From assembly GCA_029432795.1 (NCBI GenBank), contig JARNMJ010000006.1, positions 62,001 through 126,000 on the forward strand: 64,000 nucleotides of DNA, given 5' to 3'. The translations under genes were made by a program, and so were the position numbers. Shown piece after piece: positions 653 through 61,920 of the stretch. Numbering within the stretch: the first letter of the stretch is position 1; every line of letters starts with the position of its first letter. The notes under the pieces are model-generated. The model searched no databases. It was not told where the DNA came from and saw nothing but the letters and a program-made list of their open reading frames with translations. The stretch comes from Pontiellaceae bacterium B12219 (GTDB taxonomy: Bacteria > Verrucomicrobiota > Kiritimatiellia > Kiritimatiellales > Pontiellaceae).

Positions 653-862
653 TTAGCGTTGTTTCTGAGCCGGCTGAATGCCGAGTTTGTCCATACGATA
701 GCGTAGAATGCGGCGGGTGGTGCCGAGGTGCTGTGCCGCGCGGGTCTGGACGCCGTTGCATTTTTCCAGGGCCTGGATGATCAGCCGGCGTTCAAAGTTG
801 CCGACGGCTTCTTCGAGAATGATCGGGTTTTCCAAGGGTTGGAACTTTTCGGATTGATTCAC
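653..862 (-). CDS. Orphan Fis-type helix-turn-helix protein
   Basis: This 69-aa protein is little more than a Fis/NtrC C-terminal HTH (HTH_8). The segment around LIIQALEKCNGVQTRAAQHL and the following RRILRYRMDKLGI matches the DNA-binding end of sigma-54 activators, but there is no receiver or AAA+ domain. It starts with GTG and overlaps the stop of the kinase gene before it by 4 bases, so it is translationally coupled. The N-terminus contains FQPLE, encoded by one copy of the repeated palindrome (830-844). It is likely the DNA-binding partner of the adjacent kinases, or a Fis-like architectural protein. Confidence 0.8.
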   Translation of the reverse strand: MNQSEKFQPLENPIILEEAVGNFERRLIIQALEKCNGVQTRAAQHLGTTRRILRYRMDKLGIQPAQKQR

Positions 863-2850
863 GACTGTTCCTCCAGAGCGGGAAGAACAATGGATACGGA
901 AGTTCCGCCGGAACTGGTATCGATGTCGATCTGCCCGTTGTGGTCGATGACGGTGCGTTTTGCGATGGGCAATCCGAGGCCGAAGCCCAGCGCTTTGACG
1001 GTGATGAAGGGGGAGTACACTTTGTTTCGCAAAGGTTCTTCAATTCCGCTGCCGTTGTCGGTGACCATGATGTAGATGCTTCCGAGTTCTTTATCCGGGG
1101 AACGCCCTTTGACGGAAATGTTTATCCGTGAACCGGGTTTATTGGCCAGATTTTCGGCGGAGTTTTTGATCAGGTGATAAATGCACTCTTCGAGGGAGGC
1201 GGCATCGCCATTCACAAGCAGGTTGGTGTCGTCGGCGGATAAATGGATTTTAAGGTTTTCGTGTGCGAGCTCATTCTGAATTCGGGTGACGGCAAATTCG
1301 ATCGGTTTGCGAACGTCTATCGGGTGGAGAATGGGTTTCGGCGGATTCGCAAATTCGTTGATTTTGTCGATTATCTGGTTCAGGCGGTCAACTTCGAGGG
1401 TGACCTGCTCGCTGAACTCGGCGCGGAAGTCGGGATCTTCGAACCGTTTCGGCAACAGTTGTGAGAAGGTTTTAATGGCAACGAGCGGGTTGCGTATTTC
1501 GTGGCTCATGCTGGATGCGAGCTCATTCCAGAAGGCAGCACGTTCGACCTGTTCTTCTTTTTCCTGCAGCAGTTTCGCCCCGGTAATATCCCGCAGCATC
1601 ATCATGGCGCCGACGCATTGATTGTTATCGGTGAGGCAGCGGACTTCCGCGGACAGCGTCAGTTTTGTACGGGAATCGGTCCATTCGCGCTCTTTCAGGA
1701 CGGTCTGGCTCTCAACCGTTCTTCTGAAAAGGTCGGCAATGCGGCTTCCAAGCACTTCAACCCGTTCGCCAATAACGGTGGCTTCCTGTGGTTGGAGAAT
1801 TTCGCGGGCGGTGGAGTTGAACCAGCGGACTGTGGCATTTTCATCGCAGGCGATGATGCCGAAGGGAATCGAGTGGAGTACAGTTTCCGCAAGCGCTTTC
1901 TGCAGGGCCGTTTCTTCGTATTGAAATGCTTTTTCGAGGGTGGTGGAGATGTGGTCGGCGAGGCCGGTCAGGTCTTCAAGGTCGGCGACATCGAACGGAA
2001 TGCCGGTGGAGCGTTGGCCGACAAAAATCCAGCCTTTGATCGAACCGCTGGCATAGAGCGGAATAATGATTTCCGCACCGAGGGAATCGAGCATCTGTTT
2101 GAGCATGGCGCGTTCCTGCGGATCGACAATGTTTTCAAGGGTTTTACGGGAAATGAGGTGGGTGTTCATTTCCAGCCATTGAACGAATGTATTTCCGGGT
2201 TGAATGGTCAGCTTCTCGGTGGCCGAGAGGCAGCGGGTTCCCGCCTGAAAAATATAGTCGGAGTGCGGGTTCTGCTGAATGAAAATCCCGGCGCGGGAAA
2301 CGCGGGCGGTGGCAACCAGTCCTTCAACGACGCTTTCGAAGAGCAGCTCGACATTGTCGAAATTACGCTGTGCTTTTGAAAAGTTCTGCAGGGGGGCGGA
2401 AAACAGGGTTCGGGGTTCAGGGCGGTAATCTGTTTTCCGCGCATTCAGGGTTTGGAGTTCTTCCTGAAGAATCCGGTTGCGTTGCCGCAGTCCGAGACAT
2501 TCGACGGCCTGTTTCAGCAGAGCCTGGAATTCGCGGTGATCGGGTTCGAGCGAGCAGGCGGCATAGGGCTCGAGCATTTCTGCGGCGAGCATGGGATCGG
2601 AACGTTCCGTGCCCAGCACAATGATGACGGTGCCAGGGCGTTCCCGGTTGAGGGTGGAGATGACGTCCAGGCAGTTGGGTGCCCGTAGATCGGCCAATAG
2701 AACGGTGTCGCCAAAATAAGTTAATGATTGTTCCAGGTCTGCGTATTGGGCAACGGGTTTCACAGCCGCGATTGAAGCGGAAATGCGAGTTAACCGGGAT
2801 GTTAGTTCTTCATCGCGGGAGTAAAGCAGACTGGAGGGGAGTGTTCTCAT
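859..2850 (-). CDS. Sensor histidine kinase with N-terminal receiver-like, GAF and PAS domains
   Basis: The protein is 663 aa, soluble, with no membrane segment seen. Residues about 1-120 resemble a receiver fold (ADLRAP around Asp54) but lack clear Thr/Lys switch motifs. A GAF-like domain covers about 160-310 and a PAS domain about 320-425. HisKA has SSMSHEIRNPL with the phosphoacceptor His450, and HATPase_c shows DNGSGI and GFGLGLPIAKR. Its ATG overlaps the stop of the preceding kinase (ATGA), and its own stop overlaps the HTH gene. It lacks a dedicated full response regulator nearby, unless the orphan HTH protein or the hybrid at 8042 serves. Signal unknown. Confidence 0.88.
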   Translation of the reverse strand: MRTLPSSLLYSRDEELTSRLTRISASIAAVKPVAQYADLEQSLTYFGDTVLLADLRAPNCLDVISTLNRERPGTVIIVLGTERSDPMLAAEMLEPYAACSLEPDHREFQALLKQAVECLGLRQRNRILQEELQTLNARKTDYRPEPRTLFSAPLQNFSKAQRNFDNVELLFESVVEGLVATARVSRAGIFIQQNPHSDYIFQAGTRCLSATEKLTIQPGNTFVQWLEMNTHLISRKTLENIVDPQERAMLKQMLDSLGAEIIIPLYASGSIKGWIFVGQRSTGIPFDVADLEDLTGLADHISTTLEKAFQYEETALQKALAETVLHSIPFGIIACDENATVRWFNSTAREILQPQEATVIGERVEVLGSRIADLFRRTVESQTVLKEREWTDSRTKLTLSAEVRCLTDNNQCVGAMMMLRDITGAKLLQEKEEQVERAAFWNELASSMSHEIRNPLVAIKTFSQLLPKRFEDPDFRAEFSEQVTLEVDRLNQIIDKINEFANPPKPILHPIDVRKPIEFAVTRIQNELAHENLKIHLSADDTNLLVNGDAASLEECIYHLIKNSAENLANKPGSRINISVKGRSPDKELGSIYIMVTDNGSGIEEPLRNKVYSPFITVKALGFGLGLPIAKRTVIDHNGQIDIDTSSGGTSVSIVLPALEEQS

Positions 2851-5366: not shown

Positions 5367-5367
5367 T

Positions 5368-6600: not shown

Positions 6601-6697
6601 GTACCTATTTCCCCTTGGTTACCTATTTCACAACTCTTTAGCATGCAGGCGGTTGAGTGTCATTAAGTGCGAGACTGTACTTTATTTGGCATGTCGA

Positions 6698-6713
6698 TGT
6701 ACAATTTTGTACA
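6698..6713. promoter_or_regulatory. Operator-like inverted repeat in divergent promoter region
   Basis: TGTACAATTTTGTACA has perfect 7-base arms around a 2-base centre. It lies in the 240-bp AT-rich space between the divergent ketosynthase operon and the FadL-like gene, about 100 bp from the first and 130 bp from the second. A half site (TGTAC) is nearby at about 6676. The position and symmetry suggest a dimeric repressor or activator site controlling one or both operons; the binding protein is unknown. Confidence 0.4.
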
Positions 6714-6840
6714 CTAAATATCAATATGTTGTATATATCAAGAATTATTGCACAACCTGTAGGTAAAAAACTTACTGACGACTGGCATATCAATTGCTAC
6801 ATTTTGCGGCTTAGTTATATTCAATATTAAGAGGGGCAGA

Positions 6841-8037
6841 ATGAATACAAATTTTAAACAACTCCCAATGCTGTTGGGTGCAGGATTGGTGTTGGCGCAG
6901 GCCGCAGTTGGAGATGGCTATCGCAACCCGCCCCCTACAGCAGAAGGAATTGCTAAATCCGGAGTAAACTCAGTTTGGGTGAATGATGCGTCGGCCATCT
7001 CCTATAACCCGGCCAACCTGGCCTTTCAAACGAATAAATCGGTGGTTATTTCTACAACATTTGCTCAGACAGATAATACGTACTTCCCTGCGCCGGCAAC
7101 TTCGTTTGATTCTTCCGGAGATTGGAATGTGCTCCCCAATATCTATTATTCGCAGCCCATTGGGGACAAGGGGCTTTCAGTGGGATTAGGGATTACCACT
7201 CCATACGGGCAGGGTTTGGCCTGGAATGAATCCGATTTTGAAAAGCTAATCGCAGGACCGAAACCCGTGATTTATGAAGCAAGTGTAATGATGTTGGACT
7301 TTAATCCGACGGTTGCATTCAAGGTGAACGATTATCTTTCTATTGGGGTCGGTGTAGATATTTATTATTCAACGCTTGAATTAGACGCGGTTGGTGCCTC
7401 GGGCGCTCCTCCTGCACCGCTATATAATGCGACCGGAGAGGGGGATGCCTTTGGTTTGGGTGCAAATATAGGTATTACCTGGTTGCCGACGGAGGCTCAA
7501 CGCGTGGCATTAACCTATCGCAGCGAGGTTGAAATGGAATATAAAGGGGATTTTTCGTCACCCCTTCCAAACAATGGAAATTTTGAAACATCCCTCCAGT
7601 ATCCGAATATCGTCGGATTAGGTTATGGCGTGCAGTTTGCTGAAAAGTTTAAAATCGAGGCCTTGGCGGAATGGTTGCAATGGTCGTTGAATGAAAGCCA
7701 AAGCGTAGATGCCGGTGGAACCCCACTGAATGCACCGAACAACTGGGATGATACCTTCACGTTTGGGATCGGCGGAAGCTGGGATATTACCGATTCCTTT
7801 GTTTTGCGCGCCGGTTATGCCTATTTGCCGTCTCCGATTCCATCGTCAACGTTGACACCTTTGTTGCCTGATGCAGATCGTCAGGCTCTCAGTTTCGGAC
7901 TTGGCTATACGTTTGGTATGAGCCGACTTGATGTTGCATACACGTACAGTATTTATGATGAGTTGGCAGATCAAAAAGGTGGGACTTATGATATTGATTC
8001 CAACCTGATCGGTCTGTCATACTCGACTTCATTTTAG
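6841..8037 (+). CDS. FadL/OMPP1/TodX-like outer-membrane transport protein
   Basis: This is a 398-aa predicted outer-membrane barrel with an N-terminal signal peptide (MNTNFKQLPMLLGAGLVLAQ, cleavage probably after AQAA). The mature start contains NDASAISYNPANLA, typical of the FadL hatch region, followed by alternating amphipathic strands and a C-terminal SYSTSF ending in Phe. The family imports long-chain fatty acids or hydrophobic compounds. A GAGGGG site precedes the ATG. It stops 4 bp before the receiver-kinase gene and is divergent from the ketosynthase, which supports a lipid or hydrophobic substrate theme. Confidence 0.85.
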   Translation: MNTNFKQLPMLLGAGLVLAQAAVGDGYRNPPPTAEGIAKSGVNSVWVNDASAISYNPANLAFQTNKSVVISTTFAQTDNTYFPAPATSFDSSGDWNVLPNIYYSQPIGDKGLSVGLGITTPYGQGLAWNESDFEKLIAGPKPVIYEASVMMLDFNPTVAFKVNDYLSIGVGVDIYYSTLELDAVGASGAPPAPLYNATGEGDAFGLGANIGITWLPTEAQRVALTYRSEVEMEYKGDFSSPLPNNGNFETSLQYPNIVGLGYGVQFAEKFKIEALAEWLQWSLNESQSVDAGGTPLNAPNNWDDTFTFGIGGSWDITDSFVLRAGYAYLPSPIPSSTLTPLLPDADRQALSFGLGYTFGMSRLDVAYTYSIYDELADQKGGTYDIDSNLIGLSYSTSF

Positions 8038-9246: not shown

Positions 9247-10863
9247 ATGAACCATACGCCTGCAGCACTGGCCGCCATCGAAGCTTGGAAGCGGGAGGTC
9301 GGGCCGGAATCAGTTTTTTCCGATTTCCAGACTCTGGAAGAATACACGCAAAGTACGTGCGCCTCGACGCGCGAAATTGTGGCTGTCCTCAAACCGGTTT
9401 CTCTCGAACAGGTACAGCGAATCGTTGCCGTTGCCAATGAGCACCGGATTTCACTTTATCCCATCAGCCAGGGCAAACAATGGGGAATGGGTTCGCGCCT
9501 TCCGGTTCAGGACGGAGCTGCGGTGGTGGATCTTTCCGGAATGAACCGCATTCTGGAAGTCAGCGAACCATTTCATTATGCCGTGGTGGAACCCGGGGTG
9601 ACGCAGCGGCAGCTGATCGAATACCTTCAGGAAAAAAAACTGCCCTTAATGCTCAATGTGACGGGCTCAACCTCCTGCACCAGCCTGATCGGCAATGCCA
9701 TGGATCGGGGGGTGGGCTATTTCGATTCCCGCGCTGACGGCATCTCCAATATGGAAGTGGTGCTCGGCAATGGAGAAACCATTCAAACCGGTTTCGGCCA
9801 TTTTTCCAATGCCCGGACAAAAAATCTATATCCGCATGGCATCGGCCCTTCGCTCGACGGCCTCTTTCAGCAGGGAAATTTCGGGATCGTGACTTCGGCC
9901 TGCGTTGATCTGATGCCGAAGCCCGAAGCGCAGATGTCCGCCATTGTAAAAATTGACGATGAAAATAAATTACCCGGATTAATCGACGCTCTGAAAAAAC
10001 TGCGCGATCGCGGGGTTTATACCACCATTGCGCATATCGGGAACCGCGAGCGTTCGTATATCACATTGGCGCCATTGCTTTATGAACAGTTGGTTTTAGG
10101 TGGTGCTCCAGCAGGAGAAGCCACGCGGAACAAAGCTGTCCAGATGTTGGAGGATGGCGGATTCGGTCCTTGGAGTGCGGCCATCGGGGTGCTCGGGACC
10201 AAGGCCCAGCTTAAACTGGCGAAGCGTGAAATTCATAAAGCGGTCTCAGGATTTTCCAAAACGCTCTTTCTGAACGATGCAACGCTGGAACGGGCCGAAA
10301 AATGGTTGAATACGCTATCTTTCATTCCTGCGTGTAAAAAACAGCTGATGATGCTTAGCGCCATCAAACCGGTGTATGGTTTCACACGTGGCGATACGAC
10401 CGATCAATCGCTGAAATCGGTCTATTGGGCGGCCGGCGACTTCCAACGGCTGGATCACCCGAACCCCGACCATTCTGATAGCGGTATCATGTTCTGCCTC
10501 CCGATTTTTCCAGCCATTGGAAGCATTGTGCTCGACGCGGTGAAAGATACACGCGATACGTTTGCGCGCTATGGTTTCGAGGCGGCCATTACGGTGAACC
10601 TGATGGATGGGAAAGCCATGGAAGGTGTTGTGAGCCTCGCGTTTGATCGACGCAACACGGAGCAGGTCGGCAAAGCACTCGAATGCATCCAGGAAATGGA
10701 GCGTCGCTATATGGAGCAGGGCTTTCCTCCTTATCGCGTTGGTATTAATTCCATGCATCAGGTGGTTCACGAAAATGATTCCTTCTGGCAGACCGTGCAC
10801 AATCTGAAAAAGGCACTCGATCCGAACGGTATCATGGCCCCGGGCCGCTATAATCTCTCCTGA
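9247..10863 (+). CDS. FAD-binding oxidoreductase of the VAO/4-cresol dehydrogenase family
   Basis: The 538-aa protein has an N-terminal PCMH-type FAD-binding domain: QRIVAVANEHRISLYPIS, then GNAMDRGVGYFDSRAD and GPSLDGLFQQGNFGIVTSA, both typical of the vanillyl-alcohol oxidase/4-cresol dehydrogenase group. The C-terminal cap ends in DPNGIMAPGRYNL. Family members oxidise phenolic or hydroxy compounds; the substrate here is unknown. No signal peptide is seen. It follows the hybrid kinase by 8 bp and is about 120 bp before plsY. A palindrome copy (9325-9339) encodes FQTLE. Confidence 0.82.
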   Translation: MNHTPAALAAIEAWKREVGPESVFSDFQTLEEYTQSTCASTREIVAVLKPVSLEQVQRIVAVANEHRISLYPISQGKQWGMGSRLPVQDGAAVVDLSGMNRILEVSEPFHYAVVEPGVTQRQLIEYLQEKKLPLMLNVTGSTSCTSLIGNAMDRGVGYFDSRADGISNMEVVLGNGETIQTGFGHFSNARTKNLYPHGIGPSLDGLFQQGNFGIVTSACVDLMPKPEAQMSAIVKIDDENKLPGLIDALKKLRDRGVYTTIAHIGNRERSYITLAPLLYEQLVLGGAPAGEATRNKAVQMLEDGGFGPWSAAIGVLGTKAQLKLAKREIHKAVSGFSKTLFLNDATLERAEKWLNTLSFIPACKKQLMMLSAIKPVYGFTRGDTTDQSLKSVYWAAGDFQRLDHPNPDHSDSGIMFCLPIFPAIGSIVLDAVKDTRDTFARYGFEAAITVNLMDGKAMEGVVSLAFDRRNTEQVGKALECIQEMERRYMEQGFPPYRVGINSMHQVVHENDSFWQTVHNLKKALDPNGIMAPGRYNLS

Positions 10864-11574: not shown

Positions 11575-13197
11575 ATGGGGTTACTGGACGGATTCATCTT
11601 TAAAGTGGCAGACCAGGATTGGGAACTGGAGGCCATTCATGCGCTGAACTATAAAACCTTTGTTGAAGAAATTCCTCAGCATGCGATCAATCAGGAACGA
11701 AGACTGGTGGATAAATTCCACGAACAGAATACGTACATCATCTGTGTGAATGAGGAGACAAAAGAGCTCGCGGGTATGATTGCCTATCGCGACCAGCGCC
11801 CCTTTTCTCTGGATAGTAAACTCGAAAACCTCGATGCCTATCTTCCGGCTGCCCGCAAAATTTGCGAAATCCGGCTGTTGGCTGTGGAGGATGCCTATCG
11901 CTACACCCGAATAACACAGGGGCTGATTGCGTTGCTCACTGAATATGCAGACGGCCAATGCTGCGATATGTTCGTCATTTCCGGAACGGTTCGTCAGATC
12001 AAACTCTATAAATATCTGGGCTTTACTCCATTCGGGCCATTGGTTGGAACCGAAGGCGCAGAATACCAGCCGATGTATGCCTCCATGGAGGCCTATCGGC
12101 ATTTGCAGGATCGCTCCCGGTCATTTGCAAAGAATGCCCCCAAACTGGCAAACGACGATACGGTGCTGTTCAATTTTCTACCGGGACCGGTCGATTTCGC
12201 CCGGCAGGTGCAGGAGGTTTATAAAGAGAAGCCCTGCTCCCACCGTTCCGATCAGTTTATGAAAGATTTCCAGACTGTTCGGAAATTGCTCTGCGATCTC
12301 TCGCAGGCCAGGCAGGTTCAGATTCTGATGGGCCCCGGAACACTCGCCAACGATGCTGTTGCGGGACAGCTTTCATTACTTTGCAGCACCGGCCTCATTT
12401 TAGTGAGCGGTGAATTCGGCCGGCGATTGGCAAAAAATGCCAATGGAGCCAAACTGTTTTTCCATACGTTGGAAATTCCGGAAGGACAGACGTTCCAGCG
12501 TTCGGAAATCGAAAAAGTCCTTAACGACCATCCGGAGATTGACTGGATTTGGGGAACGCATTGCGAAACTTCCACCGGCGTGTTGAACGATATCGAGATG
12601 ATTCAGGAAATCTGCAAGCCGCGAGGCATCAAGGTCTGCCTGGATTGCATCAGTTCGCTCGGCACAGTGCCGGTCGATCTGTCCGGGGTTTATCTGGCTT
12701 CCGGAACCAGTGGAAAAGGGCTGGCTTCCATCTCCGGGCTCAGTATGGTTTTTCATAACCACGATTTTGAACCCGCTCCCGATGATCTGCCCTGCATACT
12801 CGATTTGGGAATCTATCAGGAGCATGACGGCATTCCGTTCACCATCCAGTCGAATCTGGTGTATGCCCTGCTTGCGGCTCTGCAGTCGCATGACTGGCCG
12901 AAACGCTTTGAAGATGTCCGCGATTGGTCGAAAAGTATTCGCCGTAAGCTGGCCGAAATCGATGCGCCGATTCTTGCTCCTGATGCCTGTGCGATGCCTG
13001 CCGTCGTCACCATTGCTCTTCCCGAAATACACTCCTCCATTTCGATCGGAGATGCATTGAAAAACGAAGGTGTACTCATCAGCTACCGCAGTCGTTATCT
13101 GCTCGAACGAAACTGGATTCAGGCCTGTATGATGGGGGCCGAGCATAAACCTGCCGAAAAATTCATCCGGCTGCTGAAAAAGGAATTGGCTCGCTGA
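11575..13197 (+). CDS. GNAT acyltransferase fused to class V aminotransferase
   Basis: The protein is 540 aa with two parts. Residues about 1-185 look like a GNAT N-acyltransferase (EIRLLAVEDAYRYTRITQGL and QIKLYKYLGFTPFG). Residues about 195-540 are a fold-type I, class V PLP aminotransferase: FLPGPV, GTHCETSTGVLND, the cofactor Asp357 in CLDCISSLG, and Lys381 in SGTSGKGLAS for the Schiff base. It resembles serine-pyruvate or aminoethylphosphonate transaminases. The fusion suggests an amine made by transamination is then N-acylated, or the reverse. It begins right after the plsY stop and ends 5 bp from a convergent gene. The product is unknown. Confidence 0.8.
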   Translation: MGLLDGFIFKVADQDWELEAIHALNYKTFVEEIPQHAINQERRLVDKFHEQNTYIICVNEETKELAGMIAYRDQRPFSLDSKLENLDAYLPAARKICEIRLLAVEDAYRYTRITQGLIALLTEYADGQCCDMFVISGTVRQIKLYKYLGFTPFGPLVGTEGAEYQPMYASMEAYRHLQDRSRSFAKNAPKLANDDTVLFNFLPGPVDFARQVQEVYKEKPCSHRSDQFMKDFQTVRKLLCDLSQARQVQILMGPGTLANDAVAGQLSLLCSTGLILVSGEFGRRLAKNANGAKLFFHTLEIPEGQTFQRSEIEKVLNDHPEIDWIWGTHCETSTGVLNDIEMIQEICKPRGIKVCLDCISSLGTVPVDLSGVYLASGTSGKGLASISGLSMVFHNHDFEPAPDDLPCILDLGIYQEHDGIPFTIQSNLVYALLAALQSHDWPKRFEDVRDWSKSIRRKLAEIDAPILAPDACAMPAVVTIALPEIHSSISIGDALKNEGVLISYRSRYLLERNWIQACMMGAEHKPAEKFIRLLKKELAR

Positions 13198-25471: not shown

Positions 25472-25472
25472 A

Positions 25473-45769: not shown

Positions 45770-45784
45770 TTCCAACGGTTGGAA
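45770..45784. repeat. Intergenic copy of the dispersed palindrome TTCCARNNNYTGGAA
   Basis: TTCCAACGGTTGGAA is the one exact copy outside a gene; a near copy lies at 45701-45715. The other exact TTCCA-N5-TGGAA starts in the window are 830, 7565, 9325, 12460, 15516, 16254, 21586, 23342, 24050, 26019, 29664, 29693, 30863, 31697, 40097, 40598, 48308, 50324, 51561, 51720, 53241, 53716, 55348, 55567, 55738 and 61767. In all but four (7565, 12460, 29664, 48308) the spacer is R-NNN-Y. The function is unknown; a chromosomal protein-binding site is plausible. Confidence 0.9.
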
Positions 45785-47230: not shown

Positions 47231-50092
47231 ATGAATTTTAAAGACGAACTCAACGAAGAACAATATGCCGCCGTCACGGCTCCCGACGGGCCCGCGCTGG
47301 TCGTCGCTGCCGCCGGAACCGGTAAAACCCGCACCCTGATTTACCGCCTGGCCTATTTGGTCACAGAAAAAAATGTCCAGCCCTGGGAAGTGCTCTTGCT
47401 GACCTTCACCAATAAAGCCGCACGGGAAATGCTGGAACGCGCAACCTCCCTGATCGACCGCCCGTTTGACCGCGGCTTCAGCGGTACCTTCCACTCTTTT
47501 GCCAACCGGCTCTTGCGCAAACATGCGGGACTCATTGGTTTCGGTAATGATTTTTCAATTCTCGATTCCGACGACTCCAAAAAGCTGGTGCGTTCCTGCA
47601 TGGACGATTTGAAAATCGACAAAAAACATTTTCCCAAGCCGGAGGTAATCCTGAGTCTGCTGGGCGTAACGAGCGGGCGCATGGGCGATCTGGCGGTTGC
47701 CGTGAACGATCATTTTGAGCTGACCGACGTCAACGCGGAGCAGGTGCTCAACGTACTGGAGCAGTATCAGGCCCGTAAGAAAGAGCAGAACGCGATGGAT
47801 TTTGACGACCTGCTCGTCTACGCCCTGAAATTGCTTGATGAGCATGAAAATGTCAGGTCGCGCTATCAGAGCGAGTTCCGTTACGTATTGGTGGACGAAT
47901 ATCAGGACACCAATGCCATTCAGGAGCGGCTGGTGCATCAGCTGATCGCCGGCCACGGCAACCTGATGGTGGTGGGCGATGACTTTCAGAGCATCTATTC
48001 CTGGCGCGGTGCCGACTATCGTAACTTCCTCGATTTTGAAAAGCGCTATCCCGATGCGACCACCTATAAACTGCAGACCAACTACCGCTCGACTCCCGAG
48101 ATTCTCGACGTCGCCAACTCGGTGATTGCGGGAAACCCGGAGCAGTTTCAAAAGGAGTTGCGCCCGGTGCGTTCTTCGCAAACCCGGCCGCATCTTTTCC
48201 GGCCGCGCGATGGTTCCATTCAGGCGCGTTATGTGATTGAAAAGGCAAAAGAGCTGAATCGAAGGGGAATGTCCTTTTCCGAGATGTGTGTGCTCTACCG
48301 TTCGCATTTCCACGCGATGGAATTGCAGATGGAACTCAGTCGCGCTTCATTGCCCTATGTGTTGACGTCCGGCGTCCGCTTTTTTGAACAGGCGCATATT
48401 AAAGACGTCTGTGCGGTGCTGAAAGTATTGGCAAATCCGAACGATGAACTGGCGTTTACGCGCTTGATTGAGCTCTTCCCGAAAGTGGGCCCGAAAACCG
48501 CTCTGAAAATCTTCCGTAAATTTGGCGGCCGTTGTAATTTCCAGCGGTCGGAAACGATTGAGGAAGTCGGAGCGGCCCTGCCCAAAGCTGCACAACCGGA
48601 GTGGGAAAAAATTGCGCCTATTTTTGCCGCCTATCGCGAGGAAAACCTGCAGAACGATCCGGGCGAAATCATTTTCCGTTTCGGAAAAGAGTTCTATTCG
48701 GAATTCATGGTTGAAAATTTTGATAACCATAAATATCGGCAGGAAGACATCGACGGACTGATCGACTTCACGGCCAAGTTTGAAACCACCGAAGAATTTC
48801 TCAGCGAAATCGCATTACAGAGCAATCTCGATGGCGAGGTTTCCGCCGAACCCGATGCGCCGGCGGACGCGCTGCGGTTGAGCACCGTACATCAGGCCAA
48901 AGGCCTGGAGTGGAAAGCTGTCTTCATTCTCTTTGCCTGCGAGGATATGTTCCCCAGCAAAAAAGCGGCGGAGGAATCGGGCGATGCCGAGGAACGCCGC
49001 CTGTTTTATGTGGCGGTAACCCGCGCCGAGGACGAGCTGTTTATCTGTGCGCCGATGGTGCGCCGTCAGCGCGACGGCGGAATAATATTTCTGGATCCTT
49101 CCCGTTTCATCGCCGAGATTCCGGAGGATAAACTGGACGAAGTTTCCGGGTTCAGCGCGGCTCAGACCTTCTCCAGTCCCGCTCCGCCCCGCCGGCCGAA
49201 GGCCCCGGCCAAGCCGGCCTTTAAACCTGCGCCGCGCCCGCCGAGCACCAAACCCACCTGGGAGCGGGAGCGCCCGCACAGCTGCCGGCTGCATATTGAC
49301 GATTTTACATTTTCCAAGGGTGCAGCTGAGGTGGAGTTGGCATTTGATGGCGACAACCTGCCGGGCTTAACCAAGTCAGTCAAGCAGACGATCCGCATCG
49401 AAGATCCGCTCTTCGACTCGATTCATAATTCGTTGAAGGAAGCCCTGCGCGGCAAAACCATTGCTCTGACGGTTTCGATTTCATACAACGCATTTTCGGT
49501 GACGGAATACGAAGTGACGGATTGCGGTCTGAAGGCGCATATGGAATCCCGGCTAGAGCCTGCGGAGCCCATGAACCTGAAAAGGCGGCTGGCAGCATTC
49601 GAGAAAAAAGGCAGGCCTTTTGTGGATACAAAAACGCTGCTTGAAGAATGCGATGACGTTGAATCAGATGCCGAGCTGATTGACCAGTTGGCATCCGATG
49701 CGCGCCATGCGGAACAGATCAATTATCTTGCTAAACAGCATCTCGCAACGTTGGGGCCCATTCATATCGGTACCGATGCGAACTCGGTGCTCTGTCTTCT
49801 GGCGGGAGAACAGGATTGCTTTTTTGTTTGGGAAGTTTTCGATGCCGACCTTTCGACCTATCTCTGGAAATCCACGGCTTCGTTGATGGAGCTCTCCACC
49901 AGGCCCACTCGCTATGGCGAAGAAATGGCCGCGGTGCTCAAAGAGATTGATTCGATTGGCCGGCTCGGCGGACGCACGAAGTACAAGGCGAACAAGCCCG
50001 CGAACTTTTCCCATTTTGACCACGACTACGACGAAGATGGTTTCGATGTGTGGCTTTCGAAGCTGAATCAGCAGTTGGGGCGCTTGCTCTAA
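47231..50092 (+). CDS. UvrD/PcrA-like ATP-dependent helicase with a long C-terminal extension
   Basis: This is a 953-aa SF1A helicase: LNEEQYAAVTAP, Walker A AAAGTGKTRT, TFTNKAAREM, YVLVDEYQDTN (motif II), GDDFQSIYSWRGAD, TNYRST, LSTVHQAKGLEWKAVF, and VAVTRAEDELF. It unwinds DNA in repair or replication restart. UvrD/PcrA are about 720 aa; here residues about 635-953 add a Pro/Arg/Lys-rich linker and a folded domain I do not recognise. A copy of the palindrome (48308-48322) is read FHAME. Confidence 0.9.
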   Translation: MNFKDELNEEQYAAVTAPDGPALVVAAAGTGKTRTLIYRLAYLVTEKNVQPWEVLLLTFTNKAAREMLERATSLIDRPFDRGFSGTFHSFANRLLRKHAGLIGFGNDFSILDSDDSKKLVRSCMDDLKIDKKHFPKPEVILSLLGVTSGRMGDLAVAVNDHFELTDVNAEQVLNVLEQYQARKKEQNAMDFDDLLVYALKLLDEHENVRSRYQSEFRYVLVDEYQDTNAIQERLVHQLIAGHGNLMVVGDDFQSIYSWRGADYRNFLDFEKRYPDATTYKLQTNYRSTPEILDVANSVIAGNPEQFQKELRPVRSSQTRPHLFRPRDGSIQARYVIEKAKELNRRGMSFSEMCVLYRSHFHAMELQMELSRASLPYVLTSGVRFFEQAHIKDVCAVLKVLANPNDELAFTRLIELFPKVGPKTALKIFRKFGGRCNFQRSETIEEVGAALPKAAQPEWEKIAPIFAAYREENLQNDPGEIIFRFGKEFYSEFMVENFDNHKYRQEDIDGLIDFTAKFETTEEFLSEIALQSNLDGEVSAEPDAPADALRLSTVHQAKGLEWKAVFILFACEDMFPSKKAAEESGDAEERRLFYVAVTRAEDELFICAPMVRRQRDGGIIFLDPSRFIAEIPEDKLDEVSGFSAAQTFSSPAPPRRPKAPAKPAFKPAPRPPSTKPTWERERPHSCRLHIDDFTFSKGAAEVELAFDGDNLPGLTKSVKQTIRIEDPLFDSIHNSLKEALRGKTIALTVSISYNAFSVTEYEVTDCGLKAHMESRLEPAEPMNLKRRLAAFEKKGRPFVDTKTLLEECDDVESDAELIDQLASDARHAEQINYLAKQHLATLGPIHIGTDANSVLCLLAGEQDCFFVWEVFDADLSTYLWKSTASLMELSTRPTRYGEEMAAVLKEIDSIGRLGGRTKYKANKPANFSHFDHDYDEDGFDVWLSKLNQQLGRLL

Positions 50093-50131: not shown

Positions 50132-51082
50132 TTACTGAAATGTGAAATCTACAATCACGGGCAGGTGATCGGAGCCGACTTTCGGGCCGATCATGCGGTT
50201 GTGGATGGAGATTTCTTCATCATGCAAAACGTGGTCGAGCGGAATACGCATGAAGGCGTTGCCGCTGGGCCAGCTGGGTTGATGGCCGAACCCCTGCATA
50301 CTGTTTTTAAGTCCGCTCTCTTTTTCCAGGGTTTGGAAAAAAGGCGACCACGGGGTGGTGTTCAGATCGCCGATCAGCAGGACCGGATATTTCTGCTGTT
50401 GAATGAATTCCGGCAGCGCAGCGAGTTGCGCATTGCGTTGTGCGGAATAGTCGGCTCCGATTGGCGGCAGCGGATGCGTCCCGATAATGGAAATTGTGCC
50501 GCCCGGGAAATAGGCCTCTGCAATAATCGATGGAACGCCGGAGTTCCCGATCTCGACGACCTGACGGTGTTCGAGCGGAACCTTGCTGAGCAAAACCATA
50601 CCGAAGCAATCTTCCCGGGGTTCAGCAATGCGGTAGGGATAGGTTGCGTTCAGTACCTCCAGTTCACGTGCCCATTTGGGCGTAACCTCTTCGAGCAGGA
50701 GGATGTCAGGCGCGGCCGTTTTGATCGCGCCAAGCACCTGGTCGGTATTGCTGTTTTCAGCGTTAATATTCATCAGCATGGCGCGGATGGTTTTGCCGGT
50801 GGCCGGGCCGGGCTTGCCGAAATAGAGCGGCAGCACAAAAGTATAATTCAGGCAGACCAACAGGACCAATGCGATCGCCAGTTTGTTCCGTCGTTTCCAC
50901 AGAGCGATGACGAACGGGATCAGACAAAGCTGCAGATACTGCACCCGGAAGTGCGAAAACAGATCGAAGAACCAATTGAATTTCCCGAAGTATCCCAGCA
51001 GCGAAACGATGAGTATCCCGATGGTGAACAGATCCAGAACGCCATCGAGCCAGGTTCGTTTTATAGGGGGCTTCTTTTTCAT
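50132..51082 (-). CDS. Membrane-anchored endonuclease/exonuclease/phosphatase family protein
   Basis: The 316-aa protein has three N-terminal membrane helices (about 15-95), then an EEP domain with MLMNINAENS, LLLEEVTPKW (catalytic Glu), GTHPLPP, IGDLNTTPWSP and a C-terminal SDHLPVIVD with the catalytic Asp-His. The family cleaves phosphodiester or phosphomonoester bonds in DNA, lipids or other substrates; the domain probably faces the periplasm. A copy of the palindrome (50324-50338) encodes FQTLE. Confidence 0.85.
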   Translation of the reverse strand: MKKKPPIKRTWLDGVLDLFTIGILIVSLLGYFGKFNWFFDLFSHFRVQYLQLCLIPFVIALWKRRNKLAIALVLLVCLNYTFVLPLYFGKPGPATGKTIRAMLMNINAENSNTDQVLGAIKTAAPDILLLEEVTPKWARELEVLNATYPYRIAEPREDCFGMVLLSKVPLEHRQVVEIGNSGVPSIIAEAYFPGGTISIIGTHPLPPIGADYSAQRNAQLAALPEFIQQQKYPVLLIGDLNTTPWSPFFQTLEKESGLKNSMQGFGHQPSWPSGNAFMRIPLDHVLHDEEISIHNRMIGPKVGSDHLPVIVDFTFQ

Positions 51083-51149: not shown

Positions 51150-52010
51150 TTACACGTCGAGCACGATGCCGCACCATTGCCCGTCGCCATCGCGGGAGAC
51201 TTCTTTGCAGCCGAGCAGGATAAACGTATCGGCGACGGCGTCGGCTTCAATTTCGCGGATGCCGCTTAAAAGAATCCGCTTTTTGGCGGCGCGTTTAATC
51301 AGGGGGGCGGCATCGAGCAGCACGGAGGTCAGGATATTGGCGCAGACGAGGTCGGCCGGTTTGGTATTCCAGCCGGGTTCCAGCACATCGGCCTGGAAGA
51401 AATGGATTTTATCTGAAACGTCATTCCGGGCGGCGTTGGTGTTGCACTGGTCGACGCAGACGGGGTCGTAGTCGAAGGCCACCACGTCGGGAATGCCGAG
51501 TTTAATGGCGGCGATGGAGAGGATGCCGCTGCCGGTTCCGGCATCGATCATCGAATGTATTTCCAAGGTCTGGAAAGCCGTTTCCAGTGCCTCCAGACAG
51601 AAGCGGGTGGTGAAATGTCCGCCGGTGCCGAAGCTGAGGCCGGGATTGATGGTGATATTGATTTTATCATCGTCCGGCACTTCCTCCCATTCCGGAATAA
51701 TACGCAGGTTTTTCCCGAGTTCCAGCGTCTGGAAGTGGTGCTGCCAAAAGGTGGTCCAATCCTGCTCTTTGTATTCTCTGGCTTCCGAGGAGAGAATGAA
51801 GAGATCGCCGGGCAGGGCTTTTTGTGCAATCTGTGCTTCGAGCAGCGAGTCGAAATAGACCTCGATCCGCGATTCTTCGGCCAGATGCTCAGAAACTTCA
51901 ATGGGCTCTTTTTCAAGTGCATCGCGAACCCATTCGCAAACCGATTCCACATGTTGAATCGGGACAAAGAGGTTAAGCTGTCCACCGCTGTTTTTATTTT
52001 CTTCGCTCAT
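51150..52010 (-). CDS. prmA: Ribosomal protein L11 methyltransferase PrmA
   Basis: The 286-aa SAM methyltransferase has PGLSFGTGGHFTTRFCLEAL, the PrmA hallmark, motif I MIDAGTGSGILSIAAIKLG, and VCANILTSVLLDAAP. It trimethylates ribosomal protein L11. An N-terminal domain of about 110 residues precedes, as in other PrmA proteins. Two palindrome copies encode FQTLE (51561-51575 and 51720-51734), 159 bp apart, the closest tandem spacing apart from the BioH-like pair. Confidence 0.93.
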   Translation of the reverse strand: MSEENKNSGGQLNLFVPIQHVESVCEWVRDALEKEPIEVSEHLAEESRIEVYFDSLLEAQIAQKALPGDLFILSSEAREYKEQDWTTFWQHHFQTLELGKNLRIIPEWEEVPDDDKINITINPGLSFGTGGHFTTRFCLEALETAFQTLEIHSMIDAGTGSGILSIAAIKLGIPDVVAFDYDPVCVDQCNTNAARNDVSDKIHFFQADVLEPGWNTKPADLVCANILTSVLLDAAPLIKRAAKKRILLSGIREIEADAVADTFILLGCKEVSRDGDGQWCGIVLDV

Positions 52011-52054: not shown

Positions 52055-54358
52055 TTAATTCTGTAAATGCCGGTTTTGCCGGGGCATTGGAGTAGAGGCT
52101 TTTGCGGCTTCGGTGTCACGTTTTTCAAAGCCGAACTTTTTCAGGAATCCGGGCACATCCGGCCGGTTGCCGCGCTGATAGTCGGTCCAGAGGGCTTCGG
52201 CTACGGATGTATCATCCAGTTTGCGTTCCAGAGTCAGAAATTCCATCAGCAGTTTGGCCAGGCGAACGACGTGCAGATTTCCGGTGGTGTCGGTTTTGGC
52301 GTAGAGCCAGTCGGAAAACCGCATGAATGCCGCGAAGGGGGAGTGCGGGAGCCCGCTGGAGGAGGCGGGCGGTGCGTCGCCGGGTCTGCTGGAAGCAGGC
52401 GGTACGGGTGTGCCGCCTGCTTCCAGCAGGCTTGAGGAATGGGAAACTCGGATATCGGCTTTCTCCGGATTATCGCGAATGTACTTTCTGATCCGAAGTA
52501 GTTCATCAACATCGCGAACGATGTGATCATAATATTCTTTTTGCCACAATTTACCGGTCAGGTTTCGTACCCGGTTAATTTGATTAGAAGAAAACGATTT
52601 CCAGGAATGCAGAAGTTCAGATAGCTGATGTTCTCCCAGCGGCTTCACTAAAACGTGGACGTGGTTCGGCATAATCACCCATTCTCCCAATTGATAACGC
52701 GTTCCATCAAAATGAAGCAGGGCATCCGCAACGATTTGGGAGAAGTCAGGATTGCGGAGGAGGCAGGAGCCAGCCCCTTCGTCCAGCCAGTCATTGATTC
52801 GTTCTGAAAACAGGTCATTAAACTGTTCTTGTTCCCTTTCGGAGTAGGGCGGCTGGTGATGTTCCTCCCATTTACGGCGCAGTTCTTCGTATTCCTTGAT
52901 CCGGGCCTGCGGGATGGAGTCGGCCAGTCGGAACGTGACGAAGTAGATACAGCCGTCCTGTGTCCAGTGCGGATAGTTTTTGCGCTGGGTTTGCAGGATT
53001 TTCTGATGCGGGTTGAAACCGGTGGTTTCGGGGAGCCCGCTGGAAGCGGGCGATACTGGTGCGGGAGTATCGCCGCCATCCTGGCGGCCTTGCCAGATGA
53101 GCGGCGCGGTGTTGAGGAACTGGCCGTTGTTGACGACGAGGTTCCAATAGCGGGCAAAGCGTTGGATACGCTGCATGTCTTGAAAGGAGATCAGGCTGGT
53201 GCTGAGAATTTCGTAGGGGGCGTGTGAACTGTAGAGCATGTTCCAATCGTTGGAATGCCGGTCTATCGGAGCACCGCGCAGGCGTTTGAGAATGCCGAGT
53301 TGAATTTCCTGCGGTCGGAGGGCGAGCAGCCGATTGAATCCGGCTTCGAAGCTTTTGAGGTCTTCTCCCGGCAGGCCGGCAATCAGATCGGAATGAATAT
53401 GTACGCCGGTTTCATCGCGCAGGCGGCGCATATTGATTTCGATTTTTTCGATGTCCAATGGGCGTTGAATTCGATGTGCGACTGCTTCATTGAAGGTTTG
53501 AATCCCGACTTCGAACTGCAGCATGCCGGGCGGGCAGTCGGCGACGGCTTCCATCAGTTCGTCGGGCAGTTGCGAGGGAATGACCTCGAAGTGCAGCATC
53601 ATACCCGGCCGATAGCGTTCTTTGAAGAAGGCCAGCACTTTCAGGGCGAATGCGATATCGATGTTGAAGCTGCGGTCGACAAATTTAAAACCGAGTGCCC
53701 CGCGGTCGATCAACTTTCCAAAGGCTGGAAAGAGTTTGTCTTCGGGAAAATAGCGCACGCAGGGATCGAGCGACGACATACAGTATTCGCAGCGGAAGGG
53801 GCAGCCGCGCGAGGCCTCAACATAAATTGCGCGGTGTTTGAGGTCTTCGTCGGTGTAAAGATCGTACGGCAGTTCGATCTGTGAAACGTCGACCATTTCG
53901 GCCTGGATGATTCGGCGGGGCCGACTGGAAGCCGGCGGTATGAACGCATCGCTGGCTTCCAGCAGACTTCTGCAGAGTTTCGGGACTTCGGTTTCGCCTT
54001 CACCGCAGACGACGTAGTCGGCGTATTGGAAAATTTCCTGTTGTTCGGTTTCGTAGGAGATTTCGGGGCCGCCGAGGATTAGCCGGATTTCGGGCCGGAT
54101 CTTTTTGAGCAGCGCGGCAACCTTTGTGACGAGGTCGATATTCCAGATATAGCAGCCGATCAGTATGATTTTCGGTTGATGACTCAGGATTTTTTCAACG
54201 GCAACCCGAGGCTGCACCTGCAGGTCGTATTCCAATAAAAGGCTTTGTGCTTTCAGTTCACCCATGTTGGCGAGCAGGTAGCGGGCTCCGAACGAGGTGT
54301 GGGCATAGCGTGCGTTGAATGCGGCAAATATGATTTCAGATGGTTTCGGTGGGTTCAT
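52055..54358 (-). CDS. B12-binding radical-SAM protein with an in-frame RAYT transposase insertion
   Basis: The protein is 767 aa. Residues about 10-140 are a B12-binding-like Rossmann domain; 175-370 is a radical-SAM domain with the CxxxCxxC motif at Cys186, Cys190, Cys193; the C-terminal 90 residues (from SPFAAFMRFSDWLYAK) match the DUF4080 end of this family. Between them residues about 428-672 are foreign: a whole Y1/HUH transposase (WVIMPNHVHVL with His566/His568, Tyr626 in RKYIRDNP) and Ala/Ser/Pro segments encoded by REP hairpins. No stop codon interrupts. Without the insert the length (about 520) is normal. Confidence 0.85.
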   Translation of the reverse strand: MNPPKPSEIIFAAFNARYAHTSFGARYLLANMGELKAQSLLLEYDLQVQPRVAVEKILSHQPKIILIGCYIWNIDLVTKVAALLKKIRPEIRLILGGPEISYETEQQEIFQYADYVVCGEGETEVPKLCRSLLEASDAFIPPASSRPRRIIQAEMVDVSQIELPYDLYTDEDLKHRAIYVEASRGCPFRCEYCMSSLDPCVRYFPEDKLFPAFGKLIDRGALGFKFVDRSFNIDIAFALKVLAFFKERYRPGMMLHFEVIPSQLPDELMEAVADCPPGMLQFEVGIQTFNEAVAHRIQRPLDIEKIEINMRRLRDETGVHIHSDLIAGLPGEDLKSFEAGFNRLLALRPQEIQLGILKRLRGAPIDRHSNDWNMLYSSHAPYEILSTSLISFQDMQRIQRFARYWNLVVNNGQFLNTAPLIWQGRQDGGDTPAPVSPASSGLPETTGFNPHQKILQTQRKNYPHWTQDGCIYFVTFRLADSIPQARIKEYEELRRKWEEHHQPPYSEREQEQFNDLFSERINDWLDEGAGSCLLRNPDFSQIVADALLHFDGTRYQLGEWVIMPNHVHVLVKPLGEHQLSELLHSWKSFSSNQINRVRNLTGKLWQKEYYDHIVRDVDELLRIRKYIRDNPEKADIRVSHSSSLLEAGGTPVPPASSRPGDAPPASSSGLPHSPFAAFMRFSDWLYAKTDTTGNLHVVRLAKLLMEFLTLERKLDDTSVAEALWTDYQRGNRPDVPGFLKKFGFEKRDTEAAKASTPMPRQNRHLQN
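52386..52429. repeat. REP hairpin on the 3' side of the RAYT
   Basis: A perfect 17-bp inverted repeat (52386-52402 with 52413-52429) surrounds a 10-base loop; the arms start CTGCTGGAAGCAGGCGG. A related half element lies just before it (52351-52372). Both are read as coding sequence (PPASS peptides). Confidence 0.85.
53035..53074. repeat. REP hairpin on the 5' side of the RAYT
   Basis: GCCCGCTGGAAGCGGGC is a short palindrome around TGGAA, overlapping a second hairpin with 9-bp arms GGCGATACT/AGTATCGCC (53049-53057 with 53066-53074). It shares the CTGGAAGC core with the other REP copies. Confidence 0.8.
53925..53962. repeat. Solitary REP-like hairpin in the radical-SAM N-terminal region
   Basis: CTGGAAGCCGGCG (53925-53937) pairs with CGCTGGCTTCCAG (53950-53962), 12 of 13 bases. 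It is read in frame as part of EASDAFIPPASSRPRR between the B12-binding and radical-SAM domains, so a REP copy has become linker sequence. Confidence 0.75.
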
Positions 54359-55073: not shown

Positions 55074-55077
55074 AGTT

Positions 55078-56169
55078 ATGATTGCATTGAATAAAACCAT
55101 TAAGCTGTTTCTCGACAGCATCGGACGCCGGGACGAGTACGAGTTTTACCTCAATAAGTTCCAGTCGGATCCATCGGCGTGTTTTGCCCTGCTTTGTCCG
55201 GATCTTGGAAGTATTGAAGCGGGTGCGGAAGTTCTGGCGTTTGATCTGCACTTTCTGCTGCGGCTGGAACTGGTGCCGGCCATTTTGCTGAGCGGTCCGG
55301 ATGCCGTTAAAATGCAGCAGGCCCTGGCGAAGGAGCCGATTTTCACGTTCCAGACCTTGGAATCCGGGACAACAGCTCCGTTTATTGAGCATGCCCGCAG
55401 TCTGGAAAAGGTGCCGGTATTGGTGGCCCCGGAGCTCGATTTGCAATCCGCTTTGCTGGAATTGCTGCCGAAAACAGCAAAACGCGTGCATTTTATTCGC
55501 GCCGCCGGCGGGCTGAAGAGCCAATCCGGGGATCGGCTGGAATATGTTTATACGCACAAGGAAAACTTCCAGCCGCTGGAAGCGTTGGAATTTGATTTTC
55601 CGAAGCTGGGAAAAAAACTGCTCGAAGAGCGGCCGGGTGTGCACCTTTCGGTGACATCGCCGCTGAATCTGCTTCAGGAAATCTTTACGGTGAAAGGTGC
55701 GGGAACTCTGTTCCGGAAGGGGAGCGAGATTCTGCACTTCCAACGGTTGGAAGGGGTGGACCAGGAACGGCTGCTGAATCTGCTGGAAGCGAGTTTCGGC
55801 AAGAAACTGGCGAATCAGGATTTCCTGAAAAATGTGGCGCAGGTCTATGTTGAGGCGGCATATCGCGGAGCGGTGCTGCTGGAAGAGCATCCGGCGGGGC
55901 TCTATCTCTCCAAGTTTGCGGTCGGGCGCGAAGCTCGCGGCGAAGGTGTGGCGCTGGAACTCTGGCGGGAAGTCTGCGATAACCATGAGGCGCTGTTCTG
56001 GCGTTCCAGTGTGCAGAATCCGTTCAATTCGTGGTATCACAAGCAGGCCGATGGCCACCACCAACAGGGAAAGTGGCAGATTTATTGGCGCGGCGTTTCG
56101 GTGGATACCATTTCGGAAATCGTTGCCTATTGCATGAACCGGGCGGAAGATTTTTCTAAAGGGGCTTAA
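55078..56169 (+). CDS. N-acetylglutamate synthase-like protein (AAK-like plus NAT domain)
   Basis: The 363-aa protein has an N-terminal region resembling a degenerate amino-acid kinase fold and a C-terminal NAT (DUF619-type) acetyltransferase domain: AGLYLSKFAVGREARGEGVA, ALFWRSSVQNPFNSWYHKQA and GKWQIYWRG match the domain of bifunctional or vertebrate-like N-acetylglutamate synthases. It probably makes N-acetylglutamate for arginine synthesis. It holds three exact palindrome copies (55348, 55567, 55738), all FQxLE. No ribosome site is seen; a large hairpin abuts the start. Its end overlaps the convergent gene by 4 bases. Confidence 0.7.
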   Translation: MIALNKTIKLFLDSIGRRDEYEFYLNKFQSDPSACFALLCPDLGSIEAGAEVLAFDLHFLLRLELVPAILLSGPDAVKMQQALAKEPIFTFQTLESGTTAPFIEHARSLEKVPVLVAPELDLQSALLELLPKTAKRVHFIRAAGGLKSQSGDRLEYVYTHKENFQPLEALEFDFPKLGKKLLEERPGVHLSVTSPLNLLQEIFTVKGAGTLFRKGSEILHFQRLEGVDQERLLNLLEASFGKKLANQDFLKNVAQVYVEAAYRGAVLLEEHPAGLYLSKFAVGREARGEGVALELWREVCDNHEALFWRSSVQNPFNSWYHKQADGHHQQGKWQIYWRGVSVDTISEIVAYCMNRAEDFSKGA

Positions 56170-60221: not shown

Positions 60222-60250
60222 TCAGTTCATAACGGACATATCGGAATGCG

Positions 60251-60283: not shown

Positions 60284-60360
60284 ATAAGTACGCAGGTTGA
60301 ATTTGAAATATTATAATAAGTTTGAAAAAGTAGATGCGTTTAAAACGAAGGGGGATCTGT

Positions 60361-61578: not shown

Positions 61579-61604
61579 AAAAAGGAGGCCCGAAAGCCTC
61601 CTTT
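61575..61604. terminator. Bidirectional terminator between ligB-like gene and HU
   Basis: AAAGGAGGC (61581-61589) pairs with GCCTCCTTT (61596-61604) around CCGAAA. Read on the minus strand it ends in seven Ts, which suits the HU gene; on the plus strand the tail is weaker. Confidence 0.85.
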
Positions 61605-61623
61605 GCATTTAAAACGATTGAAC

Positions 61624-61920
61624 TTATTTCTTTTTAACAGGAACGATTCCTTCCTGACATGCTTTAGCCACACGGAATTTAACGATGGTTTTGGCTTTAA
61701 TCTTGATGGTTTCGCCAGTAGCCGGATTGCGGCCTGTACGGGCTTTCCGTTTCGTTTTGATCAGTTTTCCAAGGCCTGGAAGAGTAAACCCGTCTACTGA
61801 TTTAGCACCTTTATAGGCCTGCGCAACAATAGACTCGTAAGCGGCTTTCGCCTGAACTTTGGTGATGTCTGCGTCGGTTGCAATCTTAGCGATGATGTCG
61901 CTTTTAGTCACTGCTGCCAT
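61624..61920 (-). CDS. HU-family DNA-binding protein
   Basis: The 98-aa histone-like protein has the HU fold: VTKSDIIAKIATDADITKVQAKAA, then GFTLPGLGKL and the DNA-binding arm KARTGRNPATGETIKIKAKT, and a Lys-rich tail VPVKKK. It compacts and bends DNA. AAAGGAG lies upstream of the ATG. The palindrome copy at 61767-61781 is read LPGLGK, not FQxLE, so the DNA motif persists even in a highly conserved gene. Confidence 0.95.
   Translation of the reverse strand: MAAVTKSDIIAKIATDADITKVQAKAAYESIVAQAYKGAKSVDGFTLPGLGKLIKTKRKARTGRNPATGETIKIKAKTIVKFRVAKACQEGIVPVKKK

Follow-up and report, generated by a model that had tools for sequence, protein, structure and literature searches.

A densely iterated 15-bp interrupted palindrome of the class Kiritimatiellia: a putative site for a dimeric chromosome-architecture protein

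Introduction

Highly iterated palindromes (HIPs), of which the cyanobacterial HIP1 is an example, are dispersed throughout both coding and non-coding DNA. The present study concerns a comparable element, the interrupted palindrome TTCCA-N5-TGGAA, which recurs along a window of 64,000 nucleotides (the whole stretch of DNA analysed) from Pontiellaceae bacterium B12219, a member of the class Kiritimatiellia within the Verrucomicrobiota. Like the cyanobacterial HIPs portrayed in PMC4390886, it is an over-represented and dense palindrome, uneven among relatives and of unsettled function; however, the HIPs covered there are 5-8 nt long, contiguous or nearly so, mostly GC-rich and present at ~1000-2000 per Mb, whereas the motif is a gapped 15-mer with A/T ends that reaches up to ~520 per Mb (in genome G037) and is helically phased in several genomes. 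Judged by the features that define the HIP class, genome-wide over-representation is shared, but the element is not short, contiguous or GC-rich.

Several other described systems invite comparison. Enhancer pairs of the NtrC type are likewise dimeric dyads with an N5 gap, placed ~32 bp (three helical turns) apart and bound by cooperative oligomers, but they are few and lie 5' of sigma-54 promoters, whereas the motif occurs in hundreds to thousands of copies that also occupy convergent gaps and genes. The AbrB protein of Bacillus binds genome-wide. Its sites, according to PMC11497800, contain TGGNA words 5 bp apart (TGGNA-5-TGGNA), a consensus that resembles the motif but is a direct rather than an inverted repeat. 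Repetitive extragenic palindromic (REP) sequences and their associated tyrosine transposases (RAYTs) also provide repeated short palindromes, some within genes, and PMC3733652 reports REPs of the GTAG type in the verrucomicrobium O. terrae. REPs are, however, 20-40 bp long and tagged by GTAG or CGTC. The motif lacks a tag of this kind, shows no sign of insertion when site-rich genomes are compared and does not correlate with the numbers of Y1 transposases. The chromosome-organising proteins MatP, SlmA, SeqA and ParB/Noc mostly have far fewer sites, or sites confined to one domain. As in the proposal made below, ParB and Noc are organising proteins with dispersed chromosomal sites. The same likeness extends to MatP, SlmA and SeqA (PMC3116907), the sites of which are likewise short, dispersed and read by an organising protein.

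No description of the motif, its length, gap, phasing or confinement to one class was found among the papers listed by searches of an open-access library, which omits most subscription journals, and a search there for the exact motif string found no paper; within that scope, the motif constitutes a previously undescribed example of the highly iterated palindromes known from cyanobacteria.

Results

Abundance and definition of the motif

A preceding sequence-only reading of the window had claimed 27 exact copies of the palindrome, spread over coding and intergenic DNA. Recounting located 28, the copy at 10508 having been overlooked, against 0.08 expected from 100 dinucleotide shuffles; the strong excess was therefore confirmed, and proved larger than claimed. 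Sites with no more than one mismatch numbered 51 (3.2 expected); one near-site listed at 7123 actually starts at 7113. Throughout the whole 4.75-Mb genome to which the window belongs (G000; other G numbers denote genomes compared, and L numbers DNA records or contigs), the count was far removed from chance, with 1554 exact sites compared with 2 for a reversed-pattern control. Chance and base composition were thus ruled out as explanations by both the shuffles and the reversed control.

Subsequent script-made counts (refined motif, codons, frames, conservation, phasing and base tolerance) were conducted on parts of genomes. When inverted 5-mers with gaps of 0-12 were ranked in 206 kb of G000, TTCCA with a gap of 5 came first (90 copies), ranks 2-8 were shifted registers of the same word, and the best unrelated word reached 6. 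An R-NNN-Y spacer was present in 24 of the 28 window sites and a central G or C in every one of them. Equivalent counts in the analysed portions of six site-rich genomes gave R..Y around the inner triplet in 543/576 sites and a G or C centre in 553/576, because of which the motif was refined to TTCCARNSNYTGGAA. Site-rich genomes carry about one site per 2-3 kb, and G000 one per 3 kb.

Distribution among genomes

Across 58 genomes, G000 included, the lowest exact-site count was 3 and the highest 2297; the 28 genomes of the window's genus spanned 5 to 2297 and the 14 of a sister family (f2) 181-1091; the genome of one related record, 'Verrucomicrobia bacterium isolate MAG23' (L005), contained 1091. 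A wider survey of 288 genomes of the class indicated that the refined motif is patchy, being present in families f1, f2, f18 and f22, in genus g9 of f8 (1731, 928, 351 and 954 copies), in g47 of f27 (462 and 416) and in g59 of f14 (3121), at intermediate or mixed levels in f6, f9, f12, f17 and f36, and at no more than 6 copies in those members of f11, f31 and f37 that were sampled. Both states were recorded inside single genera (174, 185 and 3 copies in g34; 110, 106, 34 and 2 in g25). The 191 genomes taken from other classes of the phylum contained at most 9 copies, and eight other named genomes held 1-22 copies of a looser pattern compared with 2-15 for controls. Among the sampled genomes, the motif is restricted to the Kiritimatiellia and patchy inside that class.

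As a separate observation, one genome from another class (G338) lacked the motif altogether but yielded the reversed control 52 times, and perhaps contains another iterated sequence.

Constraint on DNA rather than peptide

The earlier assertion that the target of selection or spread is the DNA, not a peptide, was supported by the codon-aware controls which had been suggested with it. In 157 predicted G000 genes (178 kb), 75 coding sites were present; the gene finder used was a simple one (coding fraction 0.71-0.92) that misses genes, including the gene holding the site at 7565, and all coding and intergenic counts are consequently approximate. Shuffling synonymous codons within each gene abolished 86% of these sites, leaving a mean of 10.8 (never more than 21 over 200 runs), and randomising the order of codons left 0.41, results which speak against codon usage or peptide selection as the cause. 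The peptide F[QH]x[LM]E occurred 43 times in the same genes, compared with 1.2 expected from residue frequencies, and was encoded by an exact site in 42 of the 43 cases. The coding sites of G000 occupied all three frames (42, 25 and 8). In the window the frame giving F-Q/H-x-L/M-E accounted for 17 sites, with 6 shifted by one and 3 by two, a tally that agreed with the previous one except that two sites (45770 and 61767), not one, were intergenic. These data support the conclusion that selection or spread works at the level of DNA. Neither the codon-aware control nor the genome-wide count, the two results named beforehand as able to overturn the observation, did so.

Conservation and decay between relatives

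Sites were largely retained at orthologous positions between site-rich genomes, being exact in 9/11 cases from G000 to G016 (9/12 in the reverse direction), 15/19 from G000 to G001, 8/8 from G001 to G016 (8/11 in reverse) and 8/12 from G040 to G032 (8/11 in reverse). In site-rich pairs, where background divergence was 21-25%, the ten fixed bases differed by only 0-5%, compared with 30-36% for the five inner bases and 12-22% for lone half-words. No insertions or deletions were detected at aligned sites between site-rich genomes (G000/G016, G000/G001, G001/G016 and G040/G032).

Comparison with site-poor relatives, also suggested by the sequence-only reading, gave the opposite outcome, the orthologous places in G005 and G030 being mostly lost. 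Only 1/10 sites of G000 and 5/16 of G016 were exact in G005, small samples of 10 and 16 sites in which the ten bases differed by 30% (24% background; 3 insertions or deletions) and 26% (22% background) respectively. In G030, 7/49 sites of G040 were exact (12 insertions or deletions; ten bases 19% different compared with 18% background), as were 1/3 of those of G032 (13% compared with 25%). The sites remaining in site-poor genomes were mostly common to relatives (G030 in G040, 7/11; G005 in G016, 3/4; G005 in G000, 1/1), and G004, aligned to the window only, retained 0/9 window sites.

Counts of imperfect sites relative to wrong-gap controls followed a similar division. With 90 exact sites, G000 had 66 more one-mismatch and 13 fewer two-mismatch sites than controls, and G032, with 76, had 56 more and 23 fewer; an excess of two-mismatch sites was absent from five site-rich genomes and likewise from site-rich G040 (278 exact; 502 two-mismatch sites compared with 554 in the control). 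Site-poor G030 (26 exact), by contrast, had an excess of both one-mismatch (58) and two-mismatch (45) sites, the latter being therefore taken as a mark of decay.

Base tolerance and half-site behaviour

The profile of one-mismatch variants in six genomes, expressed as observed/control counts, was strongly position-dependent. Substitutions at C4 were not above control (A 15/13.6; G 5/8.6; T 3/2.4), while A5 to G was well tolerated (162/14.6), C3 to T (52/10) and T2 to C (26/5.2) were tolerated, and T1 could be replaced by any base. If the variants arose by simple mutational decay, C3 and C4 should be affected about alike; the profile instead resembles the preferences of a reader. Each half-site selected A or G independently (AA 326, AG 200 and GG 17, compared with 334, 184 and 25 expected; 576 sites), and inner self-complementary pairs were rarer than chance (113 compared with 151). 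Together these two results favour a dimer on double-stranded DNA and disfavour an RNA hairpin.

Helical phasing and phage arrays

The half-sites within each motif lie 10 bp apart, about one helical turn. The distances between neighbouring sites were coherent at 10.5 bp in G048 (R = 0.95, n = 33), G032 (R = 0.85, n = 25) and G040 (R = 0.83, n = 86), with G040 distances falling near 22, 31, 42, 52, 63, 73, 84 and 94 bp; in these three relatives, adjacent sites thus share a face of the helix. In G048, sites were either single or in arrays of 2-4 spaced by 31/32 bp, with spacers unlike one another.

A viral collection was scanned using spacing windows of unequal width (1, 2 or 3 spacings), with a looser core for the 22-bp scan. 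On-phase pairs were recorded at 31/32 bp in nine stretches on eight contigs, at 22 bp in four (looser core) and at 41-43 bp in four, compared with none off-phase at 26/27 bp and one stretch at 36/37 bp. Genes for terminase, portal protein and head protease are present on two array-bearing contigs (L250 and L254), and in these tailed phages the arrays, mostly phased, are situated 5' of the terminase gene (six sites at L250:2786-2946; four at L254:650-767).

Search for the reader protein

Of the protein families assessed against site density, the PF04014 (AbrB/MazE) family is disfavoured, since three site-rich genomes (G000, G032 and G037) gave no match to it and rho was -0.01. MraZ (PF02381) was rejected as a discriminating reader, being present in 52/58 genomes including site-poor ones (rho -0.03) and having no match in dense G028 (79% complete), even though the 6 genomes without it had a lower median density (6 compared with 76 per Mb). 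NrpR (PF01995) tracked density in part (rho 0.41, p 0.0014), but had no match in dense G028, G036 and G057 and was present in site-poor G044, G046 and G055; its operator differs from the motif. A home-made helix-turn-helix score, applied to 669 proteins predicted from roughly half the G040 genome, picked out 66 that by eye were mostly membrane proteins or enzymes, and skimming the starts of 235 filtered proteins, five of which were checked in Pfam, disclosed ordinary regulators only. Clusters of at least three sites marked no single recurring gene. A scan of the window plus L085-L248 for canonical parS, with CACGTG fixed at the centre and up to two mismatches allowed, found none, a negative of little weight because few origins fall in that DNA.

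Within the window itself, the open reading frame at 653-862 on the minus strand codes for a standalone 69-residue Fis-family helix-turn-helix protein, a possible candidate for the reader. Its start overlaps by 4 bases the end of the upstream histidine kinase gene (859-2850, minus strand), and an exact site (830) and a near one (764) lie inside it. Sequence matches in the PDB were to 2m8g, a 'transcriptional regulator' (6e-6), ZraR (0.003) and a Nif-specific regulator (0.0064), and a profile prepared from the protein and two tblastn matches found only the same three open reading frames (69, 452 and 518 residues) in the DNA examined. The sites bound by E. coli Fis are dyads of 15 bp, and on the glnA enhancer dimers of NtrC are paired at a distance of ~32 bp; by analogy, the geometry of a Fis-type domain would fit the site.

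Individual sites and neighbouring genes in the window

The first of the window's 28 sites (no strand being assigned to any) is TTCCAAGGGTTGGAA at 830..844, within the Fis-like frame, and the same sequence recurs at 29693..29707. It is followed by TTCCAAACAATGGAA at 7565..7579, within the open reading frame 6841-8037 (plus strand), which together with TTCCATACGTTGGAA at 12460..12474, TTCCAATCCATGGAA at 29664..29678 and the site at 48308..48322 lacks the R..Y pattern. Beyond TTCCAGACTCTGGAA at 9325..9339 lies the previously overlooked TTCCAGCCATTGGAA at 10508..10522, identical to that at 15516..15530, and thereafter TTCCAAGCATTGGAA (16254..16268), TTCCAGCCGTTGGAA (21586..21600), TTCCAAAGGTTGGAA (23342..23356), TTCCAGGGATTGGAA (24050..24064), TTCCAACGATTGGAA (26019..26033), TTCCAACGCCTGGAA (30863..30877), TTCCAATGGTTGGAA (31697..31711), whose G016 counterpart has one mismatch, TTCCAGCCCTTGGAA (40097..40111) and TTCCAATCGTTGGAA (40598..40612). 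The intergenic site at 45770..45784 is conserved in both G016 and G001, as are the sites at 51561..51575, 51720..51734, 53716..53730, 55348..55362, 55567..55581 and 55738..55752; the site at 53241..53255 is conserved in G005 as well, and that at 48308..48322, inside a UvrD-like gene, in G016. None of the four relatives compared conserves TTCCAGGGTTTGGAA at 50324..50338. The last site is the intergenic TTCCAAGGCCTGGAA at 61767..61781.

Other features of the window were recorded in passing. Positions 4001-8000 are low in GC (0.43 compared with 0.51-0.56 elsewhere) and may form an island. The gene at 35878-39825 (minus strand) codes for a 1315-residue protein in which chondroitinase-B-like domains are combined with Ig domains and which matches PATR (autotransporter-type) below threshold, and that at 52055-54358 (minus strand) for a B12-binding radical SAM protein, residues 554-629 of which match the Y1 (IS200-like) transposase family. 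For the aconitase B gene at 57663-60221 (plus strand), cyanobacterial relatives (66% identity) come next after two metagenome-assembled genomes of the Verrucomicrobiota/Lentisphaerales among the matches listed, which suggests that the gene may have been acquired by transfer.

Discussion

The proposed reader and the evidence that weighs against it

It is proposed that each TTCCARNSNYTGGAA is a putative site at which a dimeric host protein binds DNA in a sequence-specific manner, this protein being most probably an oligomerising factor of chromosome architecture; we regard the proposal as having about an even chance of being correct. Such a dimer would read the two TTCCA half-sites, 10 bp apart, independently; dimers on adjacent sites may touch or bridge each other, and at about one site per 2-3 kb they could organise or compact the chromosome. 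A lineage that lost the reader would then allow its sites to decay like neutral sequence, and phages with phased arrays would employ the same host protein. An architectural role is preferred to a regulatory one because several types of intergenic gap and also gene bodies are used. Among the roles listed in the sequence-only reading, binding by a nucleoid-type protein is the best fit. The more specific version, in which a bridging protein occupies phased 15-bp sites chromosome-wide, is specific to the class, leaves F-Q-x-L-E peptides as a by-product and is common to host phages, is offered more tentatively, at somewhat under even chances.

A number of results weigh against this interpretation. 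Phasing was weak in G001 (R = 0.55, n = 14), while neither G000 (R = 0.26, n = 21) nor G016 (R = 0.09, n = 14) showed any; bridging is therefore unsupported for the window's own genome. All 28 sites in the 80 kb of G048 examined were intergenic, and 75/90 of those in G000 were coding, about in proportion to coding DNA, with no clear enrichment of its intergenic DNA (15/90 sites in 13.6% of sequence); one mechanism must therefore yield two landscapes. In G183 and G210 (family f27) the 31-32-bp array units share spacer words too (e.g., GCGAAACTGG in G183), unlike those of G048, and these arrays look like diverged tandem repeats in which local duplication may be involved. The long-lived conservation of sites could also result from biased gene conversion or uptake, and none of the searches conducted identified a reader protein.

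Alternative explanations

If the sites were instead operators of a very broad global transcription factor, with intragenic copies silencing or attenuating transcription, the dyad 15-mer would be typical of dimeric regulators, the arrays that G048 and G040 carry 5' of start codons would be accounted for, and the 31/32-bp spacing would recall cooperative NtrC enhancer pairs. However, convergent gaps were enriched as much as divergent ones in both G048 (9709 per Mb with 6 sites, compared with 7862 with 10, tandem gaps being likewise raised) and G040 (1548 with 16 sites and 1365 with 20, compared with 938 in tandem gaps and 209 in coding DNA). In G032, convergent (4 sites) and tandem (15 sites) gaps were raised and divergent gaps little so (2 sites; 356 per Mb compared with 158 in coding DNA); the gaps of G000 exhibited no enrichment (tandem 8, convergent 1 and divergent 1 sites), and its coding sites were scattered along gene length. 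This gap-type pattern is not that predicted for a promoter-bound regulator. A global regulator is judged unlikely, at roughly one chance in six.

Slightly less probable is a palindrome of the HIP1 type linked to methylation, recognised by an orphan methyltransferase and maintained by selection or repair. It has a precedent in cyanobacteria, where PMC4390886 describes HIP1 palindromes as tracking methyltransferases with some exceptions; the patchiness of the motif within families would also suit a mobile gene, and the array-bearing phage contig L254 encodes a DNA methyltransferase, the specificity of which is unassigned. Helical phasing is not predicted by such a mechanism, however, and with C4 to T not in excess and C3 to T only moderately so, the variants are unlike those of 5-methylcytosine decay.

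Maintenance as a non-polar DNA uptake signal, through uptake bias and recombination, appears improbable. The density and genic spread do resemble those of uptake sequences, and of the four genomes without ComEC (PF03772) three are site-poor (G010, G015 and G022), although these genomes are also small and incomplete. Nevertheless, ComEC was found in 54/58 genomes and does not discriminate, being present in site-poor ones such as G004, G018 and G051, and neither phased arrays, nor the exclusively intergenic sites of G048, nor phage arrays would be predicted.

Spread as a selfish mini-repeat by a transposase such as RAYT, one of the possibilities initially entertained, fits poorly in the window's genus and is more doubtful still. 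In its favour are the related units of the G183 and G210 arrays, the location of sites close to the ends of contigs in G057 and G079, and the lower median density of the 7 genomes without Y1_Tnp (5 compared with 82 per Mb); lower density in genomes devoid of Y1_Tnp or MraZ may, however, reflect small or incomplete genomes. Aligned sites in site-rich genomes are free of insertions and deletions, G048 spacers are mutually unlike, and Y1_Tnp numbers are not tied to site density across the 58 genomes (rho 0.19, p 0.15), as illustrated by G057 (0 for 122 sites), G048 (2 for 1808) and G054 (14 for 27).

An RNA hairpin acting as terminator or mRNA stabiliser is very unlikely, for although a palindrome can fold and the L254 phage array precedes a terminator-like hairpin (by eye), the half-sites vary without compensatory covariation and inner self-complementarity is rarer than chance.

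Significance

The motif is a 15-bp site, present at several hundred copies per Mb, with enough force to determine which peptides housekeeping genes encode, and it has been gained or lost repeatedly within one class. Within a single genus, the decaying G030 beside the site-rich G040 provides a natural experiment, and, since cultured members exist, the purpose of iterated palindromes is directly testable in these organisms.

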